From assembly GCA_002163155.1 (NCBI GenBank), contig MAAO01000004.1, positions 62,001 to 126,000 of the forward strand: a DNA stretch of 64,000 nucleotides, in the 5' to 3' direction. This DNA comes from Halobacteriovorax marinus (GTDB taxonomy: Bacteria; Bdellovibrionota; Bacteriovoracia; Bacteriovoracales; Bacteriovoracaceae). Shown here in pieces: positions 15,778 to 20,792 of the stretch. Each line of letters begins with the position of its first letter. The stretch's first letter is position 1. A model generated the notes under the pieces. That model was not told the DNA's origin. It searched no databases and saw only the letters and a program-made list of their open reading frames with translations. The translations under genes were made by a program, and so were the position numbers.

Positions 15778-16599
15778 ATGAAAAAAACTCTTCAAGCATT
15801 AATCGTTTTAACTCTGTCACTCACTGCTAACGCCGCTAGCAACTACTACCCAACTGCCTATAAAACAAAACTTGAAAGAGGTTCAATCTCAGGACAAGAA
15901 CTTAAAGATACACTCTTTTTAATTCTTAGTTCAACGCACGAAAAGAAAAATGGAAAAGCTGACACTCTCGGATGTTCTAACGGAACTGGAAAGTGTTACT
16001 CACATAAAGTTCTTGGATATAAAGGAGCTAGAAAAGTTCTTTTTGGAAAACTTCATTTAGAAGAAGGACCAGAGGGATATTACGTAAAAGATGTCTACTG
16101 TAGAAAGCTTATCACTCAATCTCAAGCAAATGTAGGCCCTAACATAATTCCAAACAGTACTGTTATGAACTGTGAGCACTCATGGCCACAGAGTAAATTT
16201 AGCAGAAGGTTTGGTAAAGGAATGCAAAAGAGTGATCTTCACCACCTCTACCCTACTGACTCTAGGGCCAATAGCATTAGAGGAAATTACGAATTTGGTA
16301 ACGTAGATAACGGACAAGATCTTAGAAACTGTAGCGGTTCTCGCTCTGCTGGACACGGTAGTAGATTTGAACCACCATCAGAACATAAAGGAAATGTTGC
16401 CAGAGCACTTTTCTACTTCTCAGTAAGATACAAAATTGAAATTAGCCCAAGACAAGAAGCAGTTTTAAAAGGATGGCACATTCAAGATCCTGTTGACGCT
16501 GAAGAAAGAGAGAGAAACGAAGGGATCTATAATGTTCAACAAAATAGAAACCCATTCATTGATTTCCCAACTCTAGTCGACAATATTAGAGACTTCTAA
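15778..16599 (+). CDS. Secreted endonuclease I family DNase (copy 1)
   Basis: Non-specific nuclease of the EndA/Vvn (DNase I, beta-beta-alpha-metal) family, exported by a signal peptide (residues 1-19, Ala-Asn-Ala-Ala). The active-site block NCEHSWPQSKF (about residues 130-140) gives the catalytic Glu-His, followed by KSDLHHLYPTDSRAN and IRGNYEFG with the metal-binding Asn. Six Cys could form disulfides. Members act on DNA in the periplasm or outside, typically for nutrient uptake. A strongly related second copy follows on the same strand after a terminator, so the pair looks like a tandem duplication with separate promoters. Digestion of foreign or prey DNA is a plausible role. Confidence 0.92.
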   Translation: MKKTLQALIVLTLSLTANAASNYYPTAYKTKLERGSISGQELKDTLFLILSSTHEKKNGKADTLGCSNGTGKCYSHKVLGYKGARKVLFGKLHLEEGPEGYYVKDVYCRKLITQSQANVGPNIIPNSTVMNCEHSWPQSKFSRRFGKGMQKSDLHHLYPTDSRANSIRGNYEFGNVDNGQDLRNCSGSRSAGHGSRFEPPSEHKGNVARALFYFSVRYKIEISPRQEAVLKGWHIQDPVDAEERERNEGIYNVQQNRNPFIDFPTLVDNIRDF

Positions 16600-16651: not shown

Positions 16652-16760
16652 GGTCCAAACTAAACACTGACAGGAAATATAAGAGAATCTAATAAAAAAC
16701 TCTTGGCAGTTTCAAGCCTAAGTGTGTAAAATTTTTACGACTCTTTCAAAGGATGAAAGC

Positions 16761-17597
16761 TTGAAATCATTTCTTATATTGGCTTCTCTAGTTACTACAA
16801 TTCAGTCGACATTTGCTGGACACTCTTACTATCCGCAATCTTTTCAAGATTCGGTAGAGCGCCGAGACCTGCAAGACGAAGAACTAAGAGAGAAACTCAA
16901 AAGAATACTCACCTCCACTCACCAGAAAAGATCTGGTTCAGCTGATACGCTTGGCTGTAGAAGTGGCTCTGGAGACTGCTATTCACATGTAAATCTTGGC
17001 TATAAAAACGCTAGAAAGCATATGTTTGGTGATCCAAAACTTGGACACTTAAAGAAAGATGGAAGTACTCACTACATAGTAGATGTCTACTGTCATAAGA
17101 AGTTCACAACTTCACGCGAGACTGGAAAAATCGGTCCCATGAGCATTCCAAATAGCAATGTTATTAACTGTGAGCACACATGGCCACAGAGTAAATTCAC
17201 CGGATCTGATAGCAGATTTCAAAAAAGTGATCTAAACCACTTATTTCCAACAGACTCTAGGGCCAATGGAACAAGAGGAAACCATAATTTTGGAGAAGTC
17301 ACCAATGGTCGTGAACCTGCGGTAAACTGCAAGGCCTCATCTTACGGCAATAGTAGAAGGCTTTTTCAACCTCCAACTGTTCACCAAGGAAATGTCGCCA
17401 GAGCGATGTTCTACTTCGCTGTTAGATACAATGGGAAGATCTCCAATGATATGGAGAGAATCTTAAAGAAATGGCACTTAGAAGACCCTGTGGATGATGC
17501 TGAAAGAATGAGAAATGAAGGTGTCTACCTTGCTCAAAAAAATAGAAACCCATTCATCGACTACCCAGAACTAGTCGACTTCATCGGTGATCTCTAA
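16761..17597 (+). CDS. Secreted endonuclease I family DNase (copy 2)
   Basis: Paralogue of the preceding nuclease. The active-site block reads NCEHTWPQSKF (about residue 138) and then KSDLNHLFPTDSRAN and TRGNHNFG, so the Glu-His and metal-binding Asn are kept, with His to Asn at one flanking site. The C-terminal NRNPFIDYPELVDFI matches copy 1. A TTG start at 16761 is chosen: AAGGA lies seven bases before it and the product then begins with a proper signal peptide (KSFLILASLVTTIQSTFA). A GTG at 16722 in the same frame has no ribosome site and would add 13 residues. A separate promoter is expected because a terminator precedes it. Confidence 0.9.
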   Translation: MKSFLILASLVTTIQSTFAGHSYYPQSFQDSVERRDLQDEELREKLKRILTSTHQKRSGSADTLGCRSGSGDCYSHVNLGYKNARKHMFGDPKLGHLKKDGSTHYIVDVYCHKKFTTSRETGKIGPMSIPNSNVINCEHTWPQSKFTGSDSRFQKSDLNHLFPTDSRANGTRGNHNFGEVTNGREPAVNCKASSYGNSRRLFQPPTVHQGNVARAMFYFAVRYNGKISNDMERILKKWHLEDPVDDAERMRNEGVYLAQKNRNPFIDYPELVDFIGDL

Positions 17598-18467: not shown

Positions 18468-19001
18468 ATGGCCATGAAAATTTTAGTATTCTTACTTTTT
18501 ACTATCTCTCTAAATTCATGGTCATTAGATACCATTATCCAAAATAGCCAACTCCTATCAGGGAAGAAAGTATCCTCTCTTGCTAAAGCAAAGAAGGGGC
18601 ACGTGATATTTTTCTTGAGTGGTGCCTGTCCTTGTACTAAGAAACATATTCCTTATTTAGAGAGTCTTGCTAAAGATCACCCTGATTTTAGATTTCTAGG
18701 AGTTCACTCTAACTCGTTAGAGTCATTTGCAAAGGCCAAGAAAGTATACCAAGATACAAAGTTTCCTATTGCCTACGATGAAGATGCCAAAATTGCCAAC
18801 TTCTTTAAGGCCATAAAAACTCCTCATGTCTTTGTCATAACAAATGAAGACAAGACTCTTTATCACGGAGGAGTGACTAATAGCATGGATCCCAAAAGGG
18901 CCAAGAAGTTCTACCTAGAAAACGCCCTCAATGATCTTAAAAAATCTAGAGAAGTAGAAACCAAGTTTGCCAAAGCACTTGGTTGTTACATTGTGAGATA
19001 A
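18468..19001 (+). CDS. Periplasmic redoxin (thioredoxin-fold) protein
   Basis: A 177-residue thioredoxin-fold protein with an N-terminal signal peptide (about residues 1-19). The active-site region is FFLSGACPCTKKH (Cys about 55 and 57), followed by the cis-Pro motif KTPHVFV and the C-terminal GCYI with a third Cys, a pattern known from the redoxin family whose last Cys lies at the end of the protein. It probably reduces or exchanges disulfides, or detoxifies peroxide, in the periplasm. No ribosome site decides between Met1 and Met3 (18474). The stop overlaps the frame of the next gene, so it heads a four-gene operon. Confidence 0.75.
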   Translation: MAMKILVFLLFTISLNSWSLDTIIQNSQLLSGKKVSSLAKAKKGHVIFFLSGACPCTKKHIPYLESLAKDHPDFRFLGVHSNSLESFAKAKKVYQDTKFPIAYDEDAKIANFFKAIKTPHVFVITNEDKTLYHGGVTNSMDPKRAKKFYLENALNDLKKSREVETKFAKALGCYIVR

Positions 19002-19003
19002 TT

Positions 19004-19459
19004 TTGAAAATTACTTTTTATATCATAATACTTTTTACTTTCCTCTCTTGCGGAAAATCGCCTCTTTTTAATCATCAAGATGAAGCTGACAAACCTAATC
19101 AAAACGGAATTAACTTTGTTTCATCAATGCAGTTAAAGAATCTTAATAAGTTCATAAAGATCTCTTGGGTCAATACTCCCAGCGGAGACCCTAGTATTGA
19201 AAATGAATTCATCATTCTAGTTCAAAATGGCTCAGGAGAGCTCGTAGACCTAGATGCTGACGCAACATTTTCAATTTGGGGTTGGATGCCTTCAATGGGT
19301 CATGGAACGGCAGATGATGGCCATACAACTCGCCTCTCAAAGGGAATTTACCATCACCGAGAATTATTTTTTAATATGGGTGGCGACTGGCAAATTCATT
19401 TAGATATTTTACAATTCGGAATTATAATTGATTCAACTGAGACCTCATTATCTCTATAA
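19004..19459 (+). CDS. FixH/YtkA-like lipoprotein
   Basis: A 151-residue lipoprotein. The signal ends at the lipobox FLSCGK. The mature part has the FixH/YtkA-like pattern of one small beta sandwich: WGWMPSMGHGT in the middle, GIYHHREL, then FFNMGGDWQIHLDI near the end. The Met and His residues are potential copper ligands. A TTG at 19004 is taken as start because the signal peptide begins there and it lies directly after the redoxin stop; the frame also has a TTG at 18983. The same core appears again in the gene at 20370, so these are paralogues. Location: outer face of inner membrane or inner face of outer membrane. Confidence 0.6.
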   Translation: MKITFYIIILFTFLSCGKSPLFNHQDEADKPNQNGINFVSSMQLKNLNKFIKISWVNTPSGDPSIENEFIILVQNGSGELVDLDADATFSIWGWMPSMGHGTADDGHTTRLSKGIYHHRELFFNMGGDWQIHLDILQFGIIIDSTETSLSL

Positions 19460-20358
19460 AAATAGTCTTACCACTTATATTTATTTTACTAAGTTTTAAA
19501 ATTTACGGAGCTGCTTGCTGTGGTGGAAGCTCTTCAATTCCCTCTCTAATTACAGGGGATAATCAATCTCAACTTTCTTTTTCCTACGCTAGATCTAAAG
19601 TGATTGGTCAAACTTATGGAGATAGTGAGCCTGTATTTTTTAACGACAATAAAACTTACAACACGAATACTCTCTCGCTTAAGGGAGCTTACCTTATTTC
19701 TTCTCTTTGGCAATTTGGATTAGAAGCTTCATTCCTTAGTAAAGATAATACTTATAATTCAACTGCTGAATCAAATTCTAGCCTAGCTGACACTTCACTC
19801 TCTCTTACTTTCGAACTTTTTCCAGAAGAGTATTTCTCAGTGTGGAAGCCTAGAGTATTTATTTTCGTGAGACAGTTATTTCCAACAGGAAAATCTAACT
19901 ACGAATCAGATAGTGAACTCTTAAGTGATGTGAGTGGTAAAGGTCATTATATAACCTCATCAGGACTTATTTTATCAAAGGTATATAGATCAATTGATTG
20001 GCAATTATTTTTTGAATATAAGTATCTTTATAAAACGAAAGTCAATCAGATGGAAATAGCAGGACACACTGGATTTACTACAGGAGGAAGTCTAGGACTT
20101 AGTCCTGCAGGAACGAATTTTCGTTTAGGTGTTGGTATTACGAACTTCTACTTTGATTCAAAAGAAATTCTAATCAAAAACCAAAAACAAGCTTCATCAG
20201 AAGAACAATATTGGGATAGTAGCTTCACAGTTAACTATCTTCATAAAGACTCTACTTACTCGTTAACCTATACAGACCAAACGCTACTAGGTCCGAGTCA
20301 AAATACGACTTTATCAAGAACAATATCTTTAAGCTGGCTCGAAAGATGGCCACTATAA
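19447..20358 (+). CDS. Outer-membrane barrel-like protein with no ordinary start codon
   Basis: The frame is open from 19441 and encodes an obvious signal peptide (IVLPLIFILLSFKIYG) followed by AACCGGSSS and about 270 residues of alternating polar/hydrophobic, aromatic-rich strands like an outer-membrane beta-barrel. The first ATG, GTG or TTG in this frame is the GTG at 19600, well inside the barrel and after the signal peptide. The gene therefore seems to start at ATT 19447 (GAG five bases upstream), ATC 19450 or ATA 19456. The start overlaps the end of the FixH-like gene, so coupling is likely. The Cys-Cys pair and FixH-like neighbours suggest a metal or redox link, inferred only. Confidence 0.6.
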   Translation: MISIKIVLPLIFILLSFKIYGAACCGGSSSIPSLITGDNQSQLSFSYARSKVIGQTYGDSEPVFFNDNKTYNTNTLSLKGAYLISSLWQFGLEASFLSKDNTYNSTAESNSSLADTSLSLTFELFPEEYFSVWKPRVFIFVRQLFPTGKSNYESDSELLSDVSGKGHYITSSGLILSKVYRSIDWQLFFEYKYLYKTKVNQMEIAGHTGFTTGGSLGLSPAGTNFRLGVGITNFYFDSKEILIKNQKQASSEEQYWDSSFTVNYLHKDSTYSLTYTDQTLLGPSQNTTLSRTISLSWLERWPL

Positions 20359-20369
20359 TTGGAGAACAA

Positions 20370-20792
20370 ATGAAAAGAATATTTACTTTATTACTCTTAG
20401 TCCTAACTCAAGTGTCCATGGCCGATTGCCAAGTACTACTTAATAAAGTCAACACTTGTGTAGATTACAAATGGACTAGCGGACCATACTTAAACTCTAG
20501 AGGTCAGAGGAATTTTTCTGAATTAGAAGTCAAATTCTTTATGAAAGATGATGCTTCAGAATCTCCTATTAAAATTGATGGCATAAAAGTTTACCCATGG
20601 ATGATCATGGCGGGAATGCAACACGGAACAAGACCCGTACAAACTACAGCTCTTACTAATGGATCTTATCTGGTTTCAGAAATATTTCTTAGGAAAATGA
20701 TGGGTCACTGGGAAATTCGTTTTGGAGAAGACAGTGATGATTTCGATCCTCAAAATGACGACCATATTCTTGGAAAATTTATTATAAAATAG
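20370..20792 (+). CDS. Exported FixH-like protein (second copy)
   Basis: A 140-residue exported protein with signal peptide (MKRIFTLLLLVLTQVSMA). The ATG at 20370 has GGAG six bases before it and sits 11 bases after the barrel stop. The core YPWMIMAGMQHGT, a GSYLVSE turn and MMGHWEIRF repeats the pattern of the lipoprotein two genes earlier, so both belong to one FixH/YtkA-like family, here without a lipobox. Two Cys near residues 21 and 30 may form a disulfide. The Met/His cluster could bind copper. It is the last gene of the redoxin operon, with a strong palindromic terminator after it. Confidence 0.65.
   Translation: MKRIFTLLLLVLTQVSMADCQVLLNKVNTCVDYKWTSGPYLNSRGQRNFSELEVKFFMKDDASESPIKIDGIKVYPWMIMAGMQHGTRPVQTTALTNGSYLVSEIFLRKMMGHWEIRFGEDSDDFDPQNDDHILGKFIIK

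Follow-up and report, generated by a model that had tools for sequence, protein, structure and literature searches.

In one Halobacteriovorax-like species of marine predatory bacteria, the ATG start codon of an outer-membrane barrel gene appears, from comparison with the sequences of congeners, to have mutated to ATA, a very weak start. The gene is located in a window of 64,000 nucleotides (the whole stretch of DNA that was analysed), where its open frame runs on the plus strand from position 19441, immediately after the TGA 19438-19440, to the stop codon 20356-20358. The earliest ATG, GTG or TTG of this frame is the GTG 19600. Upstream of the mature N-terminus AACCGG, the frame reads GAC CTC ATT ATC TCT ATA AAA ATA GTC..., and the only candidates near the beginning of the signal peptide are ATT 19447, ATC 19450, ATA 19456 and ATA 19462. 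Because the frame encodes a protein of 300 amino acids with 50-52% identity to the orthologues of three congeners, which have an ATG at this site, the lack of a canonical start exceeds what chance would give. The gene is present in a single copy in the source genome and is also found in the congeners, with an identity of 51-52% in the genome search. A first-pass annotation of the window had reported that a signal peptide and the sequence AACCGG are encoded before any canonical start codon, and this is confirmed, GTG 19600 being residue 49. A start at this GTG was rejected, as the protein would then lack its signal peptide and the invariant Cys-Cys-Gly, along with the greater part of predicted strand 1 (residues 36-53). 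No AUG, GUG or UUG is found where the homologs start, which makes the barrel gene a candidate for the class of AUH (AUA, AUU or AUC) starts and bears out the non-canonical start proposed for it. Gene finders limited to ATG, GTG and TTG would cut this outer-membrane protein short, with GTG 19600 as its start, or treat the gene as broken. The features of the locus are listed in the table.

Table. Features of the barrel locus (positions of the window).
Feature	Position	Strand	Evidence or remark
AhpC/TSA-redoxin-like exported protein, first in the conserved cluster	18474..19001	+	
YtkA/FixH-like lipoprotein, start TTG 19004, presumed coupling partner	19004..19459	+	Pfam PF13115, E=3.8e-6
ATT chosen by the first-pass annotation	19447..19449	+	No congener counterpart; weak Shine-Dalgarno
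ATA, proposed barrel start	19456..19458	+	Aligns gap-free with ATG in three congeners and with TTG in G013
ATAA, 4-nt start/stop overlap (ATGA in congeners), includes the TAA 19457-19459 of the upstream gene	19456..19459	+	Alignment
Signal peptide (M)KIVLPLIFILLSFKIYG-A, mature protein from about AACCGG	19456..19512	+	Cleavage site inferred; alignment; model helix 4-12, then disorder
Barrel gene, 300 aa, predicted outer-membrane beta-barrel, FapF/COG4313-like fold	19456..20358	+	pLDDT 88.8
GTG, first canonical start codon, residue 49	19600..19602	+	Rejected: within predicted strand 1
Second YtkA-like protein, after the barrel	20370..20792	+	Good Shine-Dalgarno, -6.4 kcal/mol

At the junction, the DNA sequences align without a gap from the final 70 bases of the lipoprotein gene up to and including the start codon, and ATA 19456 falls on the ATG of the congeners. 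In G001, G003 and G004, the barrel gene starts with ATG AAA or ATG AAG within an ATGA motif whose TGA is the stop codon of the lipoprotein, and in G013 it starts with a TTG within TTGA. The 4-nt overlap is conserved in the source genome, the downstream start lying on the upstream stop in the ATAA 19456-19459 (ATGA in the three congeners), so that the overlap with the FixH/YtkA-like gene noted previously stands. A single change of G to A accounts for both differences, from ATG to ATA and from the neighbour's TGA to TAA. Across the family, the overlap with the upstream gene comprises 4, 11-14, 19, 25 or 29 nucleotides, and none was seen in a few members. The next relatives include Bacteriovorax sp. 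BSW11_IV (L053). Among the other homologs examined, none was found without a canonical start codon before the CC motif, with the exception of three sequences that could not be judged (L102 is at a contig end, the motif of L081 is misplaced and the start of L065 was not located). The comparison with relatives that had been recommended as a check, an ATG in them being listed as a refutation, does reveal an ATG at the homologous site, but this site is ATA 19456 and not ATT 19447. On these alignments, which include one genome of the species, an ATG that is present in the relatives and missing in the window fits better with a lineage-specific loss of AUG than with an overlooked ordinary start.

The codon preferred by the first-pass annotation, ATT 19447, finds no such correspondence. 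Were it the start, initiation would have moved to the ATT in place of the lost ATG, and a GAG located five bases before it would serve as ribosome-binding site. AUU is known as a weak start, the additional residues MIS would still leave a workable signal peptide, and the GAG is indeed present (19439-19441); it forms, however, a weak Shine-Dalgarno of -2.7 kcal/mol, the value being the same for ATA and ATT. A sample of 395 genes with an ATG start in the source genome has a median of -4.7 kcal/mol, and the barrel genes of the three congeners display values from -1.8 to -4.7 kcal/mol. The ATT is also more distant from the upstream stop, and reinitiation tends to use the start nearest the stop, as indicated by work on phage fr cited in PMC10666635. 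The alignment and the Shine-Dalgarno values led us to exclude ATT 19447 as the homologous start, and initiation at this codon is improbable.

We consider it rather likely that the barrel is translated weakly from AUA 19456, by ribosomes that terminate on the overlapping gene upstream and then reinitiate. Ancestrally, the ATG of the barrel would have stood in an ATGA overlap with the lipoprotein gene, and a single transition would have converted the start to ATA and the neighbour's stop to TAA. The initiator tRNA would read AUA inefficiently, the ribosome terminating at the overlapping UAA would already be in place, and a fraction of these ribosomes would reinitiate at the AUA, so that the output of barrel would be low and dependent on the upstream gene. 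Short overlaps give termination-reinitiation, for which overlaps or short distances are required (PMC10666635), and AUU yields approximately 0.3% of AUG in E. coli (Hecht 2017, as quoted in PMC10666635). From this arrangement we infer the use of AUA as the actual start, a low yield of the barrel and a coupling of its translation to the upstream gene. The weak Shine-Dalgarno would favour such a dependence; synthesis of the protein probably relies on ribosomes coming directly from the upstream gene, and translational coupling is the likely control, in agreement with the first-pass annotation. At the third base of the start codon, the 4-nt overlap tolerates G and A alone, ATA being the sole variant since T or C would abolish the neighbour's stop, and AUG versions can be taken from the relatives. 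With a difference of one base, the junction thus offers a natural test of restarting by a terminating ribosome on an AUA that overlaps the stop. If reinitiation on AUA works, overlaps of the ATAA type merit a place in annotation.

An altered initiator tRNA was rejected, as a search of the genome with one form of the initiator-type tRNA motif yielded nothing other than a motif with the anticodon CAU. Relaxed start selection through IF3 is not supported either: at the position which we take to be the equivalent of E. coli R112 (alignment by eye), the residue is N in the source genome and K in the congeners, but N is also found in other members of the family.

The frames of the barrel and of the lipoprotein overlap over 19441-19459 with an offset of -1, and a fusion of the two proteins by a -1 frameshift had been put forward as an alternative. 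This overlap contains no slippery heptamer, the signal peptide would end up buried inside the lipoprotein, and in the congeners the two genes each have their own start and stop; we thus abandon the fusion, which is extremely unlikely. The reading frame of the barrel is intact and departs at only two of 35 well-conserved columns, and gene decay was rejected on the basis of these conserved columns. The protein of the source genome nevertheless deviates from the congeners more than the congeners deviate from one another; phylogeny or a relaxed constraint may be the reason. Its larger number of unique changes, together with the very poor AUA start and the weak Shine-Dalgarno, would also be expected if the barrel were effectively silent, the loss of AUG being a recent near-null mutation that leaves little or no protein. 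This possibility appears quite improbable in view of 300 codons without a stop or a frame break and with the conserved columns kept, although a very recent loss would look alike. Very improbable too is a base error of the assembly at 19458, the true genome carrying ATGA. Such a single G-to-A error would account for everything, but the 770 orthologue pairs compared (approximately 1.2 Mb) contain no genome-specific indel-type breaks beyond the expected recoding sites, and the change keeps the stop of the neighbour, as one third of third-base changes would do by chance.

Non-canonical starts are well represented by infC, whose AUU or AUA start serves in the autoregulation of IF3 by feedback on IF3. 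In all five congeners, ATT is the sole possible start of infC, and most of the other family members examined have ATT, ATC or ATA without a suitable canonical codon. With these likely starts, the infC genes of the family (L169-L173, L214-L243) provide a series of AUH starts supplied by nature. The barrel gene resembles infC by a proposed AUH start that replaces AUG (ATT for infC in the source genome). It differs in that the start of infC is conserved, is subject to IF3 feedback and is accompanied by a very strong Shine-Dalgarno, whereas the change in the barrel is seen, as far as the sequences go, in one species and involves no such feedback. A strong or extended Shine-Dalgarno, which is typical of infC and of the cases in Staphylococcus aureus without being strictly defining, is absent at the barrel (-2.7 kcal/mol, versus -12.6 kcal/mol for infC of the source genome). 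An AUG-to-AUA mutant of T4 rIIB is reportedly the subject of papers.

In S. aureus, AUA starts have been described for infC, ccpN and citZ, with emphasis on extended Shine-Dalgarno motifs for the non-canonical starts; the AUA of citZ is confined to one lineage, the strains derived from NCTC 8325, and gives about 10% of the output of AUG (PMC13009471). The case of citZ is similar to that of the barrel by the AUA start, proposed for the barrel, of a structural gene in one lineage only. It is staphylococcal, from a set of non-canonical starts for which extended motifs are stressed, whereas the Shine-Dalgarno of the barrel is weak and its start codon lies on the stop of its neighbour. The ATGA overlaps of four nucleotides with termination-reinitiation (PMC6728339, PMC10666635) display the same geometry, with bases shared between start and stop, but the proposed start of the barrel is ATA instead of ATG, GTG or TTG, which results in ATAA.

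Start losses were sought by homology in 770 reciprocal-best pairs, for which approximately 1.2 Mb of the source genome was compared with 1.2 Mb of G001. This survey spans roughly one quarter of the genome, and starts displaced by a few codons escape it. Two genes were found without a canonical start where the congeners have an ATG, namely the barrel gene and a lipoprotein gene after pal, for which the best start is ATT. The other cases were prfB (a known frameshift), infC and one gene with an A-tract common to both genomes. The 4-nt overlaps near homology starts in the sample consist of 33 ATGA, 8 GTGA and 1 TTGA. Most of the ATAA strings in the sample have another in-frame start nearby, and the barrel has none. 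It is conceivable, though doubtful, that this lineage tolerates AUA or AUU starts in ordinary structural genes without a strong Shine-Dalgarno, since reinitiation would bring the ribosome from a gene that overlaps them or lies directly upstream. If so, ATAA would be a working type of overlap that annotation has passed over. The barrel gene and the lipoprotein gene after pal would then be two cases of such starts, and further genes of this kind would be overlooked or shortened by standard gene finders.

The lipoprotein gene directly after pal (G000:C15:35979, L285) has no canonical start, and its best start is an ATT located two nucleotides past the TAA of Pal, with a weak Shine-Dalgarno (-1.0 kcal/mol). 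In four congeners an ATG is found one codon earlier, and the locus is syntenic in L286-L289. At the A-tract gene (G000:C1:233763 and G001:C1:2777236), a conserved run of 10 A's links two frames. The membrane-anchored one stops soon after the run, where, in both genomes, a large homologous frame opens that has no start codon. This locus looks like programmed frameshifting or transcriptional slippage. In G001, a gene for a GmhA-like isomerase on the minus strand (G001:C1:412953) has no canonical start in its first 87 codons; by eye it is no AUH case, and the gene may be degraded or recoded.

The predicted structure of the barrel protein (pLDDT 88.8, pTM 0.83, 20 sequences) begins with a short helix, which is followed by a disordered segment and by the barrel, whose first strand comprises residues 36-53. 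For this predicted model, the nearest solved folds are FapF (5o65, 5o67 and 5o68; TM 0.66-0.70) and COG4313 (4rl8; TM 0.66-0.67), and the model has a barrel fold of the FapF/COG4313 type. The protein falls below the cut-off of the FapF equivalog NCBIfam NF058560 (16.5 versus 700 bits). It is thus similar to the FapF and COG4313 barrels by its predicted fold, and differs from them by an identity of 10-17%, another gene neighbourhood and the N-terminal AACCGG. At the clearest loci, the barrel gene lies beside genes for a redoxin and for one or two proteins of the YtkA-like type, and redoxins also adjoin the distant barrel relatives of gammaproteobacteria and zetaproteobacteria. As a guess, the barrel could serve envelope redox or metal handling. 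One barrel homolog, L014 (G007:C38:21535-22410), contains one internal TGA according to the search report. Elsewhere in the window, two secreted endonuclease I genes are found in tandem (15778-16599 and 16722-17597), the first matching Pfam PF04231 and the second being similar by eye.
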